Origin: an uncultured Oscillospiraceae bacterium
GTDB taxonomy: Bacteria; Bacillota; Clostridia; Oscillospirales; Oscillospiraceae
Assembly (NCBI GenBank): GCA_947626845.1
Contig: CANQTW010000014.1
Location: 1 to 53,945 of the forward strand
DNA: 53,945 nt
Direction: 5' to 3'
The position numbers and the translations under genes were made by a program. Of the stretch, positions 2,513 to 53,945 are shown piece after piece (the first letter of the stretch is position 1; each line of letters opens with the position of its first letter). The notes under the pieces are model-generated. The model had not been told where the DNA came from. It ran no database searches and worked only from the letters and a program-made list of their open reading frames with translations.

Positions 2513-2578
2513 GATTTATCCTCCTTAAGATTATTGATTATGATAAAACACGCGGTTTATGGCCCTTGCGGATGGCGG

Positions 2579-3298
2579 TTATTTGACAACGGTGCCGATC
2601 TTCTCCCCCAAAATGGCCCGCTTGATGTTCTCCGGGTCCTTCAGGGCGAAGAGGAGGACGGGGATGCTGTTGTCCATGCTGAGGCTTGTGGCGGTGGAAT
2701 CCATGACGGCCAGGTGCTTGGCCAGCACGTCATCGTAGGAGATATGGTCGAATTTCACGGCCTCCGGGTCCTTCTTCGGGTCGGCGGAGTAGACGCCGTC
2801 CACGTTCTTAGCCAGGAGGATCACGTCGGCGTTGATCTCGGCGGCCCGAAGGACGGCGGCGGTGTCTGTGGAGAAATATGGGCTGCCGGTGCCGCAGCCG
2901 AAGATGACGATGCGGCCCTTGCGGAGGTGGCTGTCGGCCTTGAGGCGGATATAGGGCTCAGCGATGGAGCTCATCTGCACCGCGGTCTGGACACGAACCT
3001 GGGCGCCCATATGCTCCAAGACGTCCGCCACGGCCAGGCAGTTCATGACGGTGGCCATCATGCCCATGTGGTCGGCGCGGGTGCGCTCCATGAGGCCCCC
3101 GCCGTCCTTGACGCCGCGCCAGAAGTTGCCGCCGCCGATGACGATGCCGATCTCCACGCCCATATCGGCGCACTCCTTGACCACCTTGCAGACGCTCTCG
3201 ATGACCTTGAAATCAAGGCCGAAGCCCCGCTCCCCCGCCAGCGCCTCGCCGGAGAGCTTTAAAAGTACCCGCTTGTAGACAGGTTTCGCGTTGTCCAT
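2579..3298 (-). CDS. pyrH: UMP kinase
   Basis: A 239-residue amino-acid-kinase-fold enzyme that phosphorylates UMP to UDP. Visible family blocks are [12 protein letters not shown] at the N-terminus, [13 protein letters not shown] (nucleotide binding), [13 protein letters not shown], and the phosphate and base-binding [17 protein letters not shown] set the start at ATG 3298 because GGGAGGAACAAAAA immediately precedes it; the open frame continues to 3466 but that stretch does not resemble the family. It is the first gene of a pyrH-frr-uppS-S66 minus-strand operon. The usual upstream rpsB-tsf pair is not here; a divergent MecA-like gene is. Confidence 0.97.
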
Positions 3299-3476
3299 TT
3301 TTTGTTCCTCCCACACAACATTTTGAGTTTTGTGTAAAGTTAACATCATTATAGCCCATCTTCGCCAAAATTGGAAGTGGGTATTTGGATATTTACAAAA
3401 AATTCGGTTTTGACGAAGGGGGAGGACATGATTTCCGGCGCTTTCAAGCCTTTCCATTCCTTCCAACCATTTATTC

Positions 3477-3547: not shown

Positions 3548-4051
3548 ATGGACATTCAGGCCATCGGCAGCAGGGCCTTTGCGGTTTACATCGGGGAACC
3601 GGAGCTGCAAAAAAGACATATCGAGCCGCGGAACATCACCGTCAGCACAGCCAGGGAGCTGGTGCGGAACGTGCTGGACTGTCCGGACACGGGCACAGTG
3701 AGCCTGGAGCTTTTTCCGGGGAGGCATGAGCTGCTCATCTTCGTCCGGCGCAGCTCCGGGGAGCCGGAATTTTATGAATTTTCCGATTTTGAAACGGTGC
3801 TGTCGGCTCTGGCCGCTTTGCCGCGGGGCTCCGCGTCATCGCTTTTTTATCTTCACGGGGTCTACATACTGGCCGTATGGCCGGGCGAGGGGGCGCGTAT
3901 CCAGGCCCTTTGCGAGTTCGGGCGGGCGGTGAAACGGGAGCCGGCGTACCTTCTCCATCTGCGCGAGCACGCGGTCACAATCGCCGACGGGGACGCCTCC
4001 GAGACGCTGGGGCGGTATTTTTCCTGCGCGGCCTCTCCGAAAGCCCCATAA
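3548..4051 (+). CDS. MecA/YpbH-like ClpC adaptor protein
   Basis: A 167-residue protein that I assign to the MecA adaptor family, which delivers substrates to the ClpCP protease in Gram-positive bacteria. The C-terminal half follows the MecA pattern: a strand-rich [16 protein letters not shown], then [14 protein letters not shown], an EFG turn, and a terminal helix around ASETLGRYF. The N-terminal part (residues 1-60) has the substrate-binding-domain pattern of IxxIGSRAFxVYI and [16 protein letters not shown]. It is shorter than Bacillus MecA (about 218) because the acidic linker is missing. ATG 3548 follows AGGAGGGG. It lies just upstream of smpB, which also feeds protein quality control. 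The assignment is from pattern only. Confidence 0.72.
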
Positions 4052-49519: not shown

Positions 49520-50187
49520 AAAATCACCGCCTTGTAGCCCAGGCCGTGGACGGTTTTCAGCTCAAACTCCGGGCATTTCTCAAACTTTCCCCGGAGCTTC
49601 GTCATGTAGACGTCAACGGCCCGCGGCGCGGTGTCGGTGTCCGGGTCCCAGAACTCGTCCATGAGCTGGGTGCGGGTGAAGGTCTTGCCGGGATAGGAAA
49701 GGAGCTTGTAGAGGATGTTGAACTCCCGCGTGGTCAGGGGGATCTCCTCGCCGTCATAGACCGCCGTGCGCTCGTCCATGTCGAGCCGGAGCTTGCCGAT
49801 CTCCAGCTTGTGGGAGGCGGCGATCTTCGCCCGCCGCAGAAGGGCGCCGATCCGCAGAAAAAGCTCGTCTAAGTCGATGGGCTTGACCATGTAATCGTCG
49901 ATTCCGATCCGATAGCCCCTCTGTTTGGAGGCGAAATCGTCCCGCGCCGTCATAAAGAGGATGGGGATGTCCTGGTTGAGGGAGCGCACGGTCTTGGCGA
50001 AGTCGTACCCGTCGATGCCGGGCATCATGATGTCAGAGACGATAAGGTCGAAGGTGGTCTGGTACATGGCCTCAAAAGCTTCATTGGCACCGAGGCACCC
50101 CACCGCCTGATAGCCGTTGCCGTTCAGGAAGGCGCAGACGGTGCGGTTCAGGTCCTTGTCATCCTCCACCACCAAGAGCTTAAACAC
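49516..50187 (-). CDS. OmpR/PhoB-family response regulator
   Basis: A 223-residue regulator: receiver domain with VVEDDKD, phospho-acceptor Asp52 (LIVSDIMMPGIDGYDF), Thr in FMTAR and Lys in YMVKPI, then a winged-helix domain (LTTREFNILYKLLSYPG, RAVDVYMTKLRGKFE, VHGLGYKAVI). It is the first gene of the RR-HK-membrane protein operon. Its promoter contains words shared with the two neighbouring promoters (AAATGTTAAA and TGTTTGC), so autoregulation is likely. Confidence 0.95.
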   Translation of the reverse strand: MFKLLVVEDDKDLNRTVCAFLNGNGYQAVGCLGANEAFEAMYQTTFDLIVSDIMMPGIDGYDFAKTVRSLNQDIPILFMTARDDFASKQRGYRIGIDDYMVKPIDLDELFLRIGALLRRAKIAASHKLEIGKLRLDMDERTAVYDGEEIPLTTREFNILYKLLSYPGKTFTRTQLMDEFWDPDTDTAPRAVDVYMTKLRGKFEKCPEFELKTVHGLGYKAVIL

Positions 50188-50213
50188 GGATAGGCCCCCT
50201 TGCGTTTTTTCTT

Positions 50214-50247
50214 ATGATAACACACAAATGTTAAAGTTTTGTTTGCG
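50214..50247 (-). promoter_or_regulatory. Response-regulator promoter with variant of the shared motif
   Basis: AAATGTTAAA (50226-50235) is identical to 51183-51192, and TGTTTGCG (50240-50247) matches the start of the motif at 47511. A -10-like TATCAT lies at 50219-50214 on the minus strand. Confidence 0.5.
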
Positions 50248-50279
50248 TTTTGGCTTTTTCAAAAATTTTTTCATAAAAT

Positions 50280-50312
50280 ATGCGCCGCACGGAGAAAATC
50301 CGCGGGGCGCAT
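50280..50312 (-). terminator. Terminator of the 93-residue protein gene
   Basis: ATGCGCC and GGCGCAT with an inner CGGA/TCCG form a long imperfect stem. On the minus strand an AT-rich tract follows. Confidence 0.75.
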
Positions 50313-50319
50313 AGGGGGT

Positions 50320-50601
50320 TTAGTGCTTTTCTGCGTTCTTGCCGGCCTCTACGCCGGCTTTGGCGGCGGCCTCACGCTGCAGCTTCTCCTCGTGAAGCCG
50401 CTTCTCCGCGTCCTCCACGGTCTCGCCCTCGCGGGTGAGGAATTTGTCCACAAACCCGTCCTCCATCTTTTTGAAGGCCCCAGTGACGCCATCCTCGATC
50501 TTTTTATAGCCGCCCACAACGCCTTCTTCGATCTTCTTGTACCCGCCGACCACTGCGCTGGCGACTTTTTCGTTTGCCTGTACGAGCTTTGACTTTGCCA
50601 T
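50320..50601 (-). CDS. Small amphipathic repeat protein
   Basis: A 93-residue protein of unknown function. It has three tandem 11-residue units, VVGGYKKIEEG, VVGGYKKIEDG and VTGAFKKMEDG, followed by a charged helix rich in Glu, Lys and Ala. There is no signal peptide or membrane segment. The 11-residue period predicts an amphipathic helix that could lie on a membrane or coil with itself. ATG 50601 follows AGGAGG. Its position between the two-component operon and a small membrane protein gene suggests the same envelope-stress context. Confidence 0.75.
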   Translation of the reverse strand: MAKSKLVQANEKVASAVVGGYKKIEEGVVGGYKKIEDGVTGAFKKMEDGFVDKFLTREGETVEDAEKRLHEEKLQREAAAKAGVEAGKNAEKH

Positions 50602-50721
50602 GATAAAATCCTCCTGTATGTTTAATATTGATTTGCCGTTTTACGGCGAATAACCGTGATGACTGCCGCCGCAGCGCCGGCTACGGCTGTTGCGATTGTG
50701 GGAATGAACCCAATATGTACC

Positions 50722-51090
50722 TTATTTCAGCCCCTTGACCACGGGGATCAGGCAGAGCAGCAGGACGATGCCGACGACGCCAACGACGATGCCCCAGACC
50801 AGCATATCCCACACCATGACCATGCACATCCCCACGCCCAGAACGATGACGCCGGCGATGGCCAGAAGCGCCGTCCCGATGGCCTTGCCGTTCAGGACGA
50901 TCATGGGCTTGCCGTCCATCTTCCGGCGGATGAGCACCATCAGGAGCAGGATCGCCGCGCCGGCGGCGCCCACCACGATGCCCTCTGTCAGCGCGTCCCA
51001 CTCCGGGAGAAGCCCCATGCACATTCCCAGGGCGAAAAGAAGTCCGCCCACCACGCTCATGATCAGGGTCACAAAGTTTTTCTTTTTCAT
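50722..51090 (-). CDS. Small four-TM membrane protein with internal duplication
   Basis: A 122-residue protein with four membrane segments in two similar halves: GLLFALGMCMGLLPEWDALTEGIVVGAAGAAILLL and GVIVLGVGMCMVMVWDMLVWGIVVGVVGIVLLL. The halves share LG.GMCM...W.....GIVVG..G. A polar loop with RRKMDGKPMIVLNGKA joins them. The same unit occurs once in the product of 47080-47463. The function is unknown. ATG 51090 follows GGAGG at 10 bases; the longer frame to 51126 includes that site. Confidence 0.8.
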   Translation of the reverse strand: MKKKNFVTLIMSVVGGLLFALGMCMGLLPEWDALTEGIVVGAAGAAILLLMVLIRRKMDGKPMIVLNGKAIGTALLAIAGVIVLGVGMCMVMVWDMLVWGIVVGVVGIVLLLCLIPVVKGLK

Positions 51091-51136
51091 TGAAATGCAC
51101 CTCCAATTTTTTAAGTGATCTCTCACTTGCGGGCTT

Positions 51137-51192
51137 ATTGTACCGCCTGTATGTTTGCAAAACGTTCAAGTTATGTTTGATAAATGTTAAAA
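51137..51192 (-). promoter_or_regulatory. Promoter with the second two-component-system motif
   Basis: TGTTTGCAAAACGTTCAAGT followed by TATGTTTG (51152-51179, plus strand) matches 47511-47538 at 26 of 28 positions. AAATGTTAAA (51183-51192) recurs in the response regulator promoter. The -10 is TACAAT (51142-51137); there is no good -35, which suits activation. Confidence 0.6.
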
Positions 51193-51206
51193 TTGAGAAA
51201 ATAACT

Positions 51207-51231
51207 GCCGCCAGACTTAAAGTCTGGCGGC
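51207..51231 (-). terminator. Terminator hairpin of the HxlR unit
   Basis: GCCGCCAGAC (51207-51216) and GTCTGGCGGC (51222-51231) form a 10-bp stem with a 5-base loop, followed on the minus strand by a T-rich tract. Confidence 0.75.
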
Positions 51232-51264
51232 TATGGCTGTTATGGCAGTTGAATCGCGGGGAAA

Positions 51265-51405
51265 TCACACGCCGGAATGGGCGGCGAAGCCCGCGTCTAT
51301 CGGCAGGACTACGCCGGTGACGGCGGAGGCGGCGAAGCACATACCGTGAATCTGGCGTATTTCCTCCAGGGTCACGGGGTCACTGTCGCCGTACCAACTT
51401 TTCAA
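51265..51405 (-). pseudogene. C-terminal remnant of an SDR oxidoreductase
   Basis: A 46-residue frame that begins at TTG 51405 after AGGAG and reads into DPVTLEEIRQIHGMCFAASA and VTGVVLPIDAGFAAHSGV. The last part is the standard C-terminus of short-chain dehydrogenases (VTGxxLPVDGG). The catalytic and nucleotide-binding parts are absent, so it is the tail of a deleted gene. It starts 20 bases after HxlR stops. HxlR regulators often control such reductases, so this may be their lost target; alternatively it is expressed as a short peptide. Confidence 0.7.
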
Positions 51406-51424
51406 GGTTTTTCTCCTAATCGTC

Positions 51425-51772
51425 TTATATCCCGGATTCCGGCTGACCCTGGGAGGCCCTATAGCTCTCTCCCCAGGCCTTCATGGCGTCGAGGATCGGC
51501 TTCAGAGACTCGCCCAGCTCTGACAGCGCGTACTCCACCCTGGGCGGGACCTCCGGGTAGACGGTGCGGGTAATGAGGCCGTCGGCCTCCATGGAGCGGA
51601 GGCTGTCCGTCAGCACCTTCTGGCTGACCCCTTCAAGGGAGCGCTGCAGCTCGTTGAAGCGCCAAGGGCGGTCAAGGAGATTGCGGATGATGAGGAGCTT
51701 CCACTTGTTGCCGATGAGCTGGACGGTTGCCGCCACGGGACACGCGGGAATGAGTTCGGCCTTCGTTTTCAT
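51425..51772 (-). CDS. HxlR family transcriptional regulator
   Basis: A 115-residue winged-helix regulator of the HxlR family. The block CPVAATVQLIGNKWKLLIIRNLL at the N-terminus carries the conserved, often redox-sensing cysteine (Cys11). RFNELQRSLEGVSQKVLTDSLRSMEADGLI is the recognition helix and wing, and YALSELGESLKPILDAMKAWGE the dimer helix. ATG 51772 follows CAGGAGG. It is divergent from the ACGX peptide gene; a shared 188-base region holds both promoters and candidate operators, so it probably regulates itself and perhaps the peptide system. Confidence 0.93.
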   Translation of the reverse strand: MKTKAELIPACPVAATVQLIGNKWKLLIIRNLLDRPWRFNELQRSLEGVSQKVLTDSLRSMEADGLITRTVYPEVPPRVEYALSELGESLKPILDAMKAWGESYRASQGQPESGI

Positions 51773-51796
51773 AAAAACGCCTCCTGCACGAAAATT

Positions 51797-51839
51797 GAAT
51801 GTTACATTCCATTTTAATGTGTCGTTCTACTCCCGTCAA
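51797..51839 (-). promoter_or_regulatory. HxlR promoter with palindromic operator candidate
   Basis: On the minus strand TTGACG (51839-51834), 17-base spacer, TAAAAT (51816-51811). GAATGTTACATTC (51797-51809) is a 13-base palindrome lying over the predicted start point, well placed for autorepression. Confidence 0.65.
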
Positions 51840-51846
51840 GTAGTTA

Positions 51847-51908
51847 CAAAAAGGTGCGTATCCCACAAAAAAGTGCGTACTTGCGGGAGGCAGAAAAAAC
51901 CGTACAAT
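51847..51908 (+). promoter_or_regulatory. ACGX peptide operon promoter with direct repeats
   Basis: TTGCGG (51881-51886), 16-base spacer, TACAAT (51903-51908). Two direct repeats, AAAAAGGTGCGTA and AAAAAAGTGCGTA, start near 51848 and 51867 and lie just upstream of or over the -35, a fitting place for a regulator site. Confidence 0.55.
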
Positions 51909-51960
51909 GAAAATTACAGGAGGCGAAAAGCTCCCTGAATCCATAAAGGAGGACACGATC

Positions 51961-52173
51961 ATGGCACTTTCTAATTTAGCTGGATGGACTGAGGACAAGG
52001 CGGCTTCCGCCTGCGGTGCCGCTTGCGGCGCCGCGGACAAGCCCGCCGCGGCCCCCGCTACTTGTGGTGCTGCCGACAAGCCCGCCGAGGCTCCTGCCGC
52101 GTGCGGAGCCGCGGACAAGCCGGAGGAGAAGCCCGCCGCCTGTGGGACTGCCTGCGGAGCCGGGGACAAATGA
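51961..52173 (+). CDS. ACGX-repeat precursor peptide (RiPP candidate)
   Basis: A 70-residue peptide. Residues 1-16 are a short leader-like part (MALSNLAGWTEDKAAS). The rest is made of Cys-Gly units, ACGA, ACGA, TCGA, ACGA, ACGT, ACGA, joined by ADKPAAAPA-type linkers of 9 residues. The six cysteines are at 18, 22, 35, 48, 61 and 65, so spacings are 4-13-13-13-4, a symmetric pattern. ATG 51961 follows AAAGGAGG at 8 bases. It is followed after 66 bases by a radical SAM/SPASM gene. Haft and co-workers predicted ACGX-repeat peptides as radical SAM substrates from gene neighbourhoods; the product is, as far as I know, unknown. An alternative view is a metal-binding Cys-rich protein. Confidence 0.85.
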   Translation: MALSNLAGWTEDKAASACGAACGAADKPAAAPATCGAADKPAEAPAACGAADKPEEKPAACGTACGAGDK

Positions 52174-52178
52174 CAAAC

Positions 52179-52194
52179 GGCCCCTACGGGGGCC
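52179..52194 (+). promoter_or_regulatory. Hairpin between precursor and maturase genes
   Basis: GGCCCC (52179-52184) pairs with GGGGCC (52189-52194). There is no T-run after it, so it is more likely an RNA stability or attenuation element that keeps maturase levels below precursor levels than a full terminator. Confidence 0.5.
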
Positions 52195-52239
52195 AGGTCA
52201 TTCATCGTTTATCGATTTCACATAGATATGGGGGCGCTT

Positions 52240-53280
52240 ATGCAATACTTCTCTTTTCAATGGCACATCACGGATGAGTGCGATCAGCGGTGCAAGCACT
52301 GTTATATTTTCTCCGGGGATAAGTGCCATGAGCTTAAAAGCATGAATTGGGCGCAGATGGAGGACACCTTTTATAACTGTCTGGACTTCTGCGAGGTGTA
52401 TGGCCGCTTGCCCTATTTCTATCTCACCGGTGGCGACCCTATCCTGCACCCGGATTTCTGGCGACTGCTGGCGCTGTTCAAAGAACACCATGTCCCGTTT
52501 ACCGTCATGGGCAATCCGTTCCATTTGAACGACCAGGTGTGTCGGGAGATGAAATTCTTTGGCTGTGAGAAGTACCAGCTCTCCCTGGACGGCCTCCGGG
52601 AGACACACGACTGGTTCCGCAAGCCTGGCTCCTTTGATTGCACCATGGAGAAAATCGGCTGTATCAACCGCTCCGGGATGCGAAGCGCCATTATGACCAC
52701 GGTATCCAAGACAAACCGCATGGAGGTGCCGGGGATCATCGACGCGGTGGTGGAGGCGGGGGCAAATGTATTTGCCTTTTCCCGCTATGTCCCCAGCGGC
52801 GGCGATCTGGACGCCTCCATGACGCCCCAGGAGTACCGGGAGCTGCTGGCCATCTGCGATAAGAAATTCAAAGAATATGAGGCGGAGGGCTGCCAGACCT
52901 ATTTCAACAAAAAAGACCATCTCTGGACGCTCTACGAGTATGAGACGGGAGCCTTCAAAATCCCTGCAGATGCCAAAGAGGGCATGATCTACGGCGGGTG
53001 CAACTGCGGCAACTGTCATATCACCATCCTGCCCACCGGCGACGTGTACGCCTGCCGCCGTGTTGCGGACAGCAAGGTAGGCAACGTGTTTACTGACCGG
53101 ATGGCCGACGTGTGGGTGTGCGAAATGGAGCAGTACCGAGATTATGATAAATTCGTCAAATGCAGCAAGTGTGAATTAAAGGCGTGGTGTCGTGGCTGTC
53201 CCGCCGTTGCAAAAGGGACGAACGGTAACTTTTATGCAGCCGACCCACAATGTTGGAAAGAAATCAAGGAGGTAGAATAA
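52240..53280 (+). CDS. Radical SAM/SPASM peptide maturase, ACGX system
   Basis: A 346-residue radical SAM enzyme. The [4Fe-4S] motif is CX3CX2C at Cys14, Cys18 and Cys21 (DECDQRCKHCYIF), followed by the GGDP motif in YFYLTGGDPILHP and QLSLDGL. The C-terminal SPASM region has many cysteines: GGCNCGNCH, DVYACRR, then KCSKCELKAWCRGCPA and PQCW, enough for auxiliary clusters. SPASM maturases install thioether or C-C cross-links in peptides. I prefer ATG 52240 (GGGGG 5 bases upstream) over ATG 52228. It lies between the ACGX peptide and a nitroreductase gene 1 base after its stop, so the three form one operon. Confidence 0.92.
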   Translation: MQYFSFQWHITDECDQRCKHCYIFSGDKCHELKSMNWAQMEDTFYNCLDFCEVYGRLPYFYLTGGDPILHPDFWRLLALFKEHHVPFTVMGNPFHLNDQVCREMKFFGCEKYQLSLDGLRETHDWFRKPGSFDCTMEKIGCINRSGMRSAIMTTVSKTNRMEVPGIIDAVVEAGANVFAFSRYVPSGGDLDASMTPQEYRELLAICDKKFKEYEAEGCQTYFNKKDHLWTLYEYETGAFKIPADAKEGMIYGGCNCGNCHITILPTGDVYACRRVADSKVGNVFTDRMADVWVCEMEQYRDYDKFVKCSKCELKAWCRGCPAVAKGTNGNFYAADPQCWKEIKEVE

Positions 53281-53281
53281 A

Positions 53282-53869
53282 ATGAGTGAACTGAAAGAGA
53301 CGATCCTGCACCGCCGGGCGATTCGGCGGTTTGAGGAAAAACAAATCGATGAGGATGTCTTACAGCAGATATTGGAGGCAGGTATGTATGCTCCAAGTGC
53401 GGGAGGACGTCAGGGCGTACTGTTTGTGGTTTCACAGGACAGAGTGGTAAATGAAAGATTGGGGAAAATCAAGCGGGCCAACTTCCGCCCACTAACGACG
53501 ACGACAACAAACCGAGTATCAAATGAGCAGCCCAGCATTGTAGATGACCCCAATCTCAAGAACGCCTTTTACGACGCTCCAACGGTAATTACGCTGTTTG
53601 CGCCAAAGAATTTCCTTTTTTCGGCGGAGGACTGTGCCTGCGCTGCCGAAAATATGATGCTCATGGCCGATTCCCTCGGCGTCGGCTCTTGCTATATCGG
53701 GCAGGGCTGGATGGCGTTTGCCGACCCATACGGGCAGGAGGTTTTACGCCGCTGGAATATCCGCACCGACTATTATGCGGTGATGCAGCTTCTGCTCGGT
53801 TATCCGAAAGAGGGGGACAGTCACCCGGCGCCGAAGCCCCGCAAAGACGGACGGGTGCTGCGGTTTTGA
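53282..53869 (+). CDS. Nitroreductase family flavoprotein
   Basis: A 195-residue FMN-dependent enzyme of the nitroreductase family. HRRAIRRFEEKQIDEDVL is the N-terminal FMN-binding block, MYAPSAGGRQGVLFVV the second, and CACAAENMMLMADSLGVGSCYIGQGW the central helix and loop. The ending LLLGYPKEG is typical. The cofactor-binding Arg and Ser positions look intact. It starts 1 base after the radical SAM stop, so it is co-translated. In other RiPP pathways nitroreductase-fold enzymes dehydrogenate peptide rings; here a role in modifying the ACGX peptide or in supplying electrons is inferred from position alone. Confidence 0.9.
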   Translation: MSELKETILHRRAIRRFEEKQIDEDVLQQILEAGMYAPSAGGRQGVLFVVSQDRVVNERLGKIKRANFRPLTTTTTNRVSNEQPSIVDDPNLKNAFYDAPTVITLFAPKNFLFSAEDCACAAENMMLMADSLGVGSCYIGQGWMAFADPYGQEVLRRWNIRTDYYAVMQLLLGYPKEGDSHPAPKPRKDGRVLRF

Positions 53870-53945
53870 GAAAGCCTGCAAATAAAAAGTCAACCCCAAC
53901 CGCGAAAAAATTCGAACAAAGAGTGGCGGTAAAAATGGGCAACAC

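Follow-up and report, generated by a model that had tools for sequence, protein, structure and literature searches.

A Cys-Gly repeat peptide and its radical SAM maturase in a putative thiol-stress operon of an uncultured Oscillospiraceae bacterium

The right end of a contig of 53,945 nucleotides from an uncultured Oscillospiraceae bacterium of gut type (assembly GCA_947626845.1, contig CANQTW010000014.1; G000:C14 in our set), which in its whole length is referred to here as the window, carries an operon built around an ACGX-repeat peptide and a radical S-adenosylmethionine (SAM) maturase, a pair that belongs to a known predicted family. We tentatively read the operon, with confidence falling just short of even, as a module for a ribosomally synthesized and post-translationally modified peptide (RiPP) that would act in a response to thiol or electrophile stress, its product being a Cys-modified peptide that stays in the cytosol and may carry 5-thiooxazoles. 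Taken separately, the stress function is likely, and cytosolic retention slightly more so. No description of an ACGX product was found in the open literature searched, outside of which most subscription papers lie. The features concerned are as follows.

51425..51772, minus strand: divergent HxlR/DUF24-type regulator (PF01638, 113 bits) with N-terminal Cys11 (ACPVA)
51849-51861 and 51868-51880, plus strand: two direct repeats AAAARGTGCGTAY, exact motif matches, putative HxlR operator
51961..52173, plus strand: ACGX-repeat precursor peptide, 70 aa, six Cys-Gly units (TIGR04341, 84.2 bits)
52178..52195, plus strand: six-pair G+C-rich hairpin in the peptide-maturase gap (lowest-energy fold of the gap)
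52228..53280, plus strand: radical SAM/SPASM maturase (AcgM), alternative start at 52240 (TIGR04340, 586 bits; PF04055, PF13186)
53282..53869, plus strand: nitroreductase-family flavoprotein, exchangeable redox partner (PF00881, 91 bits)

Both members of the pair pass the cut-offs of their family models, the peptide scoring 84.2 bits against the 28 required by TIGR04341 (target_ACGX) and the maturase 586 bits against the 400 of TIGR04340 (rSAM_ACGX). The maturase starts 54 bases 3′ of the peptide gene, and the nitroreductase starts 1 base past the maturase stop codon. Coordinates and profile matches thus agree with a preliminary description, made from the letters alone, of a 70-residue peptide with six Cys-Gly units at 4-13-13-13-4 spacing, a CX3CX2C radical SAM/SPASM enzyme (C18/C22/C25) and a closely following nitroreductase; its view of ACGX peptides as a radical SAM target family is borne out by the two models.

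Relatives were drawn from two sources. In a class sample of 391 genomes, maturase matches occur in 19, of which 16 exceed the TIGR04340 cut-off and three represent an outgroup adjoining agr genes, and peptide matches occur in 17. A pattern scan of a species-genome collection supplied the best 80 of 215 relatives, many of whose source bins are labelled Lapin, which we read as rabbit, or as goat, sheep or deer gut samples. From 102 loci, removal of five duplicates and of the outgroup or paralogue loci L002, L019, L020 and L021 left 93. The peptide was found in 87 of these by a rule demanding three units, and five of the six misses begin no more than 117 bases from a contig end; L068, which the rule passed over, carries a two-unit peptide recognized by eye. 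The maturase alignment comprises 91 sequences, the short frames L039 and L066 being excluded, and neighbouring genes were clustered as frames of at least 110 codons around 32 fully flanked loci.

Peptide and maturase are tightly linked. In all 79 loci whose upstream sequence extends over 1 kb or more, the peptide gene precedes that of the maturase (78 by rule, L068 by eye). The preliminary description had named widespread peptides lacking any radical SAM gene as the observation that would speak against it; 15 of the 17 peptide-bearing class genomes also contain the maturase, and the two candidate free-standing peptides were rejected, one being at a contig end (G215) and the other a deletion remnant (G197). 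The remnant at L119:762-2161 consists of a truncated ACGX peptide and a nitroreductase fragment, the maturase having been lost, and keeps the genes for HxlR, a flavin/ferredoxin protein and a macrodomain.

The Cys residues of the window peptide occupy positions 18, 22, 35, 48, 61 and 65, each is followed by Gly, and none of 20000 residue shuffles retained the six Cys-Gly units. The Gly codons of the units differ (GGT/GGC/GGT/GGA/GGG/GGA), and the repeat is therefore maintained at the protein level; the Cys codons are TGC or TGT, with no in-frame TGA. Across 84 distinct peptides with 525 Cys, Ala precedes 509 and Gly follows 516, while the residue at position +4 is Asp in 302 cases, Glu in 17 and Cys in 178, 171 of the latter having Asp at +8. 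Where no Cys stands at +4, an acid does so in 319 of 347 cases. Most units therefore read ACGxxD, with or without a preceding ACGx, and the conserved repeat is A-C-G-x-x-D/E. In six peptides whose maturases are less than 70% identical to that of the window, 28 of 29 Cys are followed by Gly, with an acid at +4 of 22 and Cys at +4 of seven; in an archaeal peptide from Methanosphaera all seven Cys are, with Glu at +3 rather than +4. Thus, Cys-Gly is the most stable part of the unit, and the nearby acid is nearly as stable, although its exact place can move.

Repetition of near-identical units, which the preliminary description had stressed, stands, whereas the meaning it gave to their symmetric spacing does not. 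Cys spacing is palindromic in only 31 of the 84 peptides, and the 4-13-13-13-4 arrangement is common to six loci, the window included. Intervals of 13 (214 cases) and 4 (178 cases) dominate, and the peptides range from two units (L068) up to 10 Cys. Symmetry, not being conserved across the family, was rejected as a design feature. Other traits of the peptides are a core almost devoid of hydrophobic residues besides Ala and Pro, and an N-terminal segment MALSNxxxW, the Trp of which is retained in 76 of 84 peptides. In 72 of 84 peptide-maturase gaps there is a hairpin of 6 bp or more (mean z -3.2 relative to mononucleotide shuffles), a tally that takes the longest match and so leaves the window gap uncounted. 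The latter folds weakly overall (z -0.9, same kind of shuffles), its six-pair stem still forming, and a stem-loop scan lists that stem on the minus strand. The hairpin is a possible element for setting the expression ratio of the two genes. Rfam gave no matches within 50000-53945.

A divergent HxlR gene accompanies the pair in 76 of the 79 loci with sufficient upstream sequence, and a nitroreductase follows in 58 of 89, which are the linkage counts that the preliminary description had proposed to make. At L016 a LysR-like gene (3565-4032, by eye) replaces the HxlR gene, and the peptide there contains single ACGxxD units only. In a phmmer search the window HxlR protein scored highest with 7kd3 (103 bits) and next with YybR (4a5m; 97 bits), which we take to be HypR, and its Cys aligns with Cys14 in the CPV motif of YybR. 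The N-terminal Cys is conserved in all 80 HxlR neighbours, in a CPV/CPI-type motif in 79 and as CDV in L022. The window protein accordingly combines the HxlR fold with the conserved N-terminal Cys by which the redox-sensing HxlR/DUF24 class (HypR, YodB, CatR) is recognized; its scores with the RrpB and RrpA models (120 and 88 bits) lie below the respective cut-offs of 175 and 185. In Bacillus, HypR, YodB and CatR sense hypochlorous acid, quinones and diamide through this Cys, and their regulons include the nitroreductase YodC, which serves in diamide and quinone detoxification (PMC6943732).

The interval between the regulator and the operon contains the motif AAAARGTGCGTAY, for which the window has two exact matches against 0.01 expected. 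It recurs in 67 of 80 HxlR-maturase intervals, with two copies in 26, and is absent elsewhere from the 1.39 million strand-bases of these loci, counts that are inflated by the relatedness of the loci; it is also found in L015, L017, L018 and L022, where the maturases are 55-57% identical. The direct repeats at 51849-51880 are probably the HxlR operator. A scan for sigma-70 promoters listed no plus-strand sites ahead of the peptide gene. Outside the ACGX loci, the motif was seen once, in L132, directly upstream of a macrodomain/Sir2 gene pair; the source genome (G151) gave no ACGX maturase hit, and the arrangement would suit membership of that pair in the same regulon.

L132, about base 2673 from the end, reverse strand: operator motif (motif match)

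The gene following the maturase occupies an exchangeable slot. The window nitroreductase (PF00881, 91 bits) exceeds the cut-off of no NCBIfam model, and its nearest PDB sequence, 3ek3, is an ordinary nitroreductase. The preliminary description had suggested that it could add a dehydrogenation step, and its start 1 base after the maturase, its presence in 58 loci and a distant PDB match (8uc3, E 2.7e-6) to albonoursin synthase, a dehydrogenating member of the family, would suit a dehydrogenase dedicated to tailoring the peptide. However, among the 89 loci whose downstream sequence reaches 650 bases or more, 25 have instead a gene for a quinone-reductase-like protein of the medium-chain dehydrogenase/reductase (MDR) type, and none has both. 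The nitroreductases themselves fall into two types, about 40% identical to one another, that swap: L026, L027 and L030 have maturases 93-94% identical to that of the window and nitroreductases just 43-44% identical. On a quick maturase tree the state of the slot changes at least 12 times, or six if only nitroreductase versus MDR is scored (L051 was counted, doubtfully, as having the nitroreductase type of the window). A peptide-shaping enzyme should be less replaceable, and such frequent replacement leaves a dedicated tailoring step unsupported; we consider it very improbable and disfavour this candidate. Six loci have neither gene in the slot. Among these, a nitroreductase match lies 2.3 kb on in L024, weak matches (45-47 bits) occur in L029, L038 and L043, an alcohol-dehydrogenase-like frame is located further downstream in L096, and L044 has none of these. 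The single MDR protein scanned is nearest to the PIG3 quinone reductases (149 bits, below the cut-off of 297).

Further downstream, 55 loci with at least 3.5 kb of sequence contain a gene for a flavin split-barrel protein with 4Fe-4S motifs (flavin/ferredoxin gene; 42 loci), a macrodomain gene (34), a Sir2-like gene (35) and at least one of the latter two (37), the family names being those of scanned representatives. The macrodomain representative matches the PRK04143 protein-ADP-ribose hydrolase model at 365 bits (cut-off 272), and we take this type to be the zinc type. From their pairing with macrodomains, the Sir2-like genes would encode SirTMs; in L081 the product falls slightly below the Pfam SIR2 cut-off and in L056 it has no Pfam match. 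The full gene order, from the ACGX operon through the macrodomain/Sir2 pair, is present in the record of Roseburia sp. 831b. In the genome of the window the downstream genes lie on contig C49, whose end precedes the flavin/ferredoxin gene by 86 bases. The window itself stops 76 bases past the nitroreductase, so C49 probably continues it. There, the flavin/ferredoxin and macrodomain genes are separated by an inserted epoxide-hydrolase-like gene (PF06441; L129:4490-5728) that runs on the opposite strand.

In the class sample, the macrodomain is found in all 16 ACGX genomes and in 55 of 375 others (Fisher p 3e-13), or, by genus, in 9 of 9 against 38 of 213 (p 4e-7), in a test that was run post hoc on overlapping genomes and in which the genus tally is the sole correction for phylogeny. 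In 12 of the 16 it lies within 3 kb on the same contig. Ten of the 55 genomes with a macrodomain and no ACGX were read, and three (L133, L138, L140) keep the HxlR, flavin/ferredoxin, macrodomain and Sir2 genes without the peptide. Together with the operator motif in L132, likewise from one of the ten, these sets make ACGX look like an add-on to a redox-stress regulon.

According to PMC4518038 and PMC11490716, SirTM/Zn-macrodomain pairs are tied to oxidative-stress responses, their known target is lipoyl-GcvH-L, and the Streptococcus GcvH-L is ADP-ribosylated on Asp by SirTM. By analogy, the modified ACGX peptide might be a polythiol redox carrier and itself the substrate of the Sir2-like enzyme and the macrodomain, with ADP-ribosylation of the Asp beside each Cys switching it off and on. 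If true, this would supply a target for those macrodomain/sirtuin pairs that lack GcvH-L and would be, to our knowledge, the first RiPP governed by reversible ADP-ribosylation. Nevertheless, the sets without the peptide imply that the Sir2-like enzyme must have other targets, which counts against the idea, and we regard it as a long shot.

Among the 32 flanked loci, the only gene clusters recurring in more than eight are HxlR, the radical SAM enzyme, the flavin/ferredoxin protein, the macrodomain and Sir2 proteins, the nitroreductase and MDR proteins, and frames from the same DNA that are antisense or belong to the peptide. With no recurrent exporter or protease gene among neighbouring frames of at least 110 codons, the product of the operon probably remains in the cytosol.

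As to the chemistry, Cys 18/22/25, 258/276/324 and 312/315/321/342 of the maturase are conserved in 90-91 of 91 sequences and C55, C105, C113 and C260 in all 91. By spacing, the first three sets would correspond to the ligands of the RS, AC1 and AC2 clusters named for PapB (PMC10470005). In all eight ACGX maturases scanned the second-best family is SbtM (TIGR04082, 150-175 bits), a likeness in profile-model scores rather than in a direct comparison with SbtM and SbtA sequences; AhbD (heme b synthase) scores 110-146 bits and PapB 60-65 in the seven where it is listed. A search for SbtM itself in 398 genomes from the phylum (E 1e-60) gave no match, which is no proof of its absence. Published work states that SbtM removes four hydrogens at Cys or selenocysteine (Sec) to form a thio(seleno)oxazole (PMC11002830), that the selenobacteriocin motif is tabled as SGUG (2026, Table 1, citing the SbtM paper; PMC13188914) and that MNIO enzymes install 5-thiooxazoles on EGKCG repeats (PMC12668002). 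Because SbtM is the nearest characterized maturase and two thiooxazole systems use Cys/Sec-Gly, we favour 5-thiooxazoles for the ACGX peptide, at about an even chance.

Several observations weigh against the stress-peptide reading or its chemical part. The HxlR gene is missing from three of the 79 loci (L010, L016, L095), and the macrodomain test has the post hoc character described above. The lead of SbtM over AhbD is modest in the window maturase (149.8 versus 113.7 bits), the SbtM cut-off of 350 is not reached, and the alignment covers model positions 197-515 of 516 only: the maturase begins at the radical SAM domain and so lacks the roughly 196 extra N-terminal positions of the SbtM model. 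The substrates of SbtM are Sec peptides, whereas the ACGX peptide contains Cys only. Furthermore, the conserved Asp/Glu at +4 is not explained by a thiooxazole alone and fits the CX3D motif of PapB, and one Roseburia locus has a major facilitator superfamily transporter gene beyond the regulator.

The acid at +4 is the foundation of the most serious rival, in which PapB-like thioethers (-2 Da each) would tie every Cys to the acid, Asp or Glu, at its +4 position (CX3D/E) and make the product a ranthipeptide, the first Cys of doublets being free or linked elsewhere. Thioethers had also been suggested in the preliminary description, and they would fit the acid found in 319 of 347 cases, Asp in 302 and Glu in 17, to which the divergent group with its 22 acids and seven Cys conforms. 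PapB modifies six CX3D motifs (PMC9413430), and the maturase retains a Cys set with PapB-like spacing (ligands as given in PMC10470005). On the other hand, the nearest characterized maturase makes thiooxazoles (PMC11002830), the PapB model (NF047865) gives 61.7 bits, 88 below SbtM and short of its cut-off of 340, and the +4 residue is Cys rather than an acid for 178 of the 525 Cys. The CX3D/E motif describes four of the six Cys in the window peptide and 319 of 525 family-wide. The Ala and Gly flanking the Cys are near invariant, whereas PapB accepts varied residues (PMC9413430); the archaeal acid at +3 is by itself a weak objection, since PapB tolerates other spacings. On balance, we consider thioethers unlikely, though well worth keeping in view.

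Two further rivals concern the role of the peptide. It could be a plain thiol or metal buffer of the metallothionein type, the maturase acting on another substrate or making a minor change, and the Cys-rich hydrophilic repeat and the stress setting would suit such a protein; the invariable position of the peptide gene ahead of the maturase (79 of 79 loci) counts against this, and we regard it as improbable. Many radical-SAM RiPPs are exported signals or antimicrobials, and the agr genes beside the maturase outgroup, like the Roseburia transporter, could point the same way for ACGX. However, no exporter or peptidase cluster of at least 110 codons recurs among the 32 flanked loci and the core is nearly free of hydrophobic residues, which renders an exported product highly improbable.

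Under the preferred reading of a cytosolic stress peptide, HxlR would sense oxidants, quinones and other electrophiles through its N-terminal Cys, as its family does, and control the divergent operon at the direct repeats. The peptide would be produced in excess over the maturase, which may bind it via MALSNxxxW without an N-terminal recognition domain and could, like SbtM, carry out a four-electron oxidation of each A-C-G Cys to a 5-thiooxazole; this last is the weakest chemical step. The product, a multivalent soft-thiol peptide, would not leave the cytosol and would trap electrophiles or soft metals there. Other parts of the same stress would fall to the macrodomain/Sir2 pair, the flavin/ferredoxin protein and the redox partner, be it a nitroreductase or quinone-reductase-like. 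Neither the regulation of the operon nor its macrodomain link is stated in the ACGX records and literature examined, and this setting turns an unknown RiPP into a specific claim, that of an intracellular multi-thiol, radical-SAM-modified stress peptide in anaerobes.

Some further loci and neighbours deserve mention. Plasmid pNP174 of the methanogenic archaeon Methanosphaera sp. ISO3-F5 carries a cassette (L127:4140-7024) with a helix-turn-helix regulator, the seven-unit Cys-Gly peptide, a maturase whose annotation is split into two pieces that lie in different frames, and a zinc-type dehydrogenase; a BREX gene follows after 3 kb. ACGX loci on short contigs in metagenome bins labelled Prevotella and Succinivibrio (L069, L083) are probably misbinned, or possibly horizontally transferred. 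The outgroup radical SAM/SPASM enzyme of three genomes (L019-L021; 35-37% identical, TIGR04340 285-308 bits, below the cut-off) lies beside AgrB (PF04647, 151 bits in L021) and, as judged by eye, a kinase-like gene and an AgrD-like peptide of 55-57 aa that has no match in Pfam, the L021 cluster being located at 1462-2535, 2562-3161 and 3197-3370; this enzyme may modify a quorum-sensing peptide. In the window, further upstream, the minus strand encodes a protein of 93 aa that contains GGYKKIE repeats and is not matched by Pfam (50320-50601), and a 134-aa membrane-like protein with a sub-threshold match only (50722-51126).

Comparison with known systems places the module as follows. SbtM/SbtA (TIGR04082/TIGR04081), the selenobacteriocin system, provides the nearest characterized maturase and a substrate with Cys/Sec followed by Gly, and differs from the window system in the score (149.8 versus 350 bits), in the N-terminal region of the model and in substrate and setting, the window peptide being a Sec-free, Cys-only repeat array in a stress operon. 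PapB/PapA (freyrasin) shares CX3D at four of the six window Cys and the spacing of the RS, AC1 and AC2 Cys, whereas the window maturase scores 61.7 bits against a cut-off of 340, a third of the family Cys have Cys at +4 and C260 is an extra invariant residue; moreover, the first cluster Cys is residue 119 in PapB (PMC10470005) and 18 in the window maturase, which thus lacks a PapB-like N-terminal domain. The MNIO captophorins and bufferins, metallophores with EGKCG 5-thiooxazoles, are likewise repeated Cys-Gly peptides tied to metal and oxidative stress, with an MNIO in the place of the radical SAM enzyme; no cluster fitting an MNIO recurs among the 32 flanked loci, the MNIO (DUF692) model itself not having been run. 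If the 5-thiooxazole array is real, radical SAM and MNIO enzymes would have reached the same soft-ligand peptides independently. The SirTM/Zn-macrodomain operon with lipoyl-GcvH-L and OYE resembles the ACGX operon in combining a Sir2-like/macrodomain pair with flavin or NAD(P)H oxidoreductases in a stress setting, and differs in that the ACGX operon includes a Cys-repeat peptide and a radical SAM enzyme; no cluster of LplA size recurs in the flanked loci, where GcvH-L, which may be shorter than 110 codons, and LplA were not searched for. Finally, with respect to the ACGX system itself (TIGR04340/TIGR04341; acgM/acgA), the adjacent window pair is far above both cut-offs, shows no structural difference and has the same gene order as the annotated acgA-acgM-nitroreductase set on a plasmid of Roseburia sp. 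831b.

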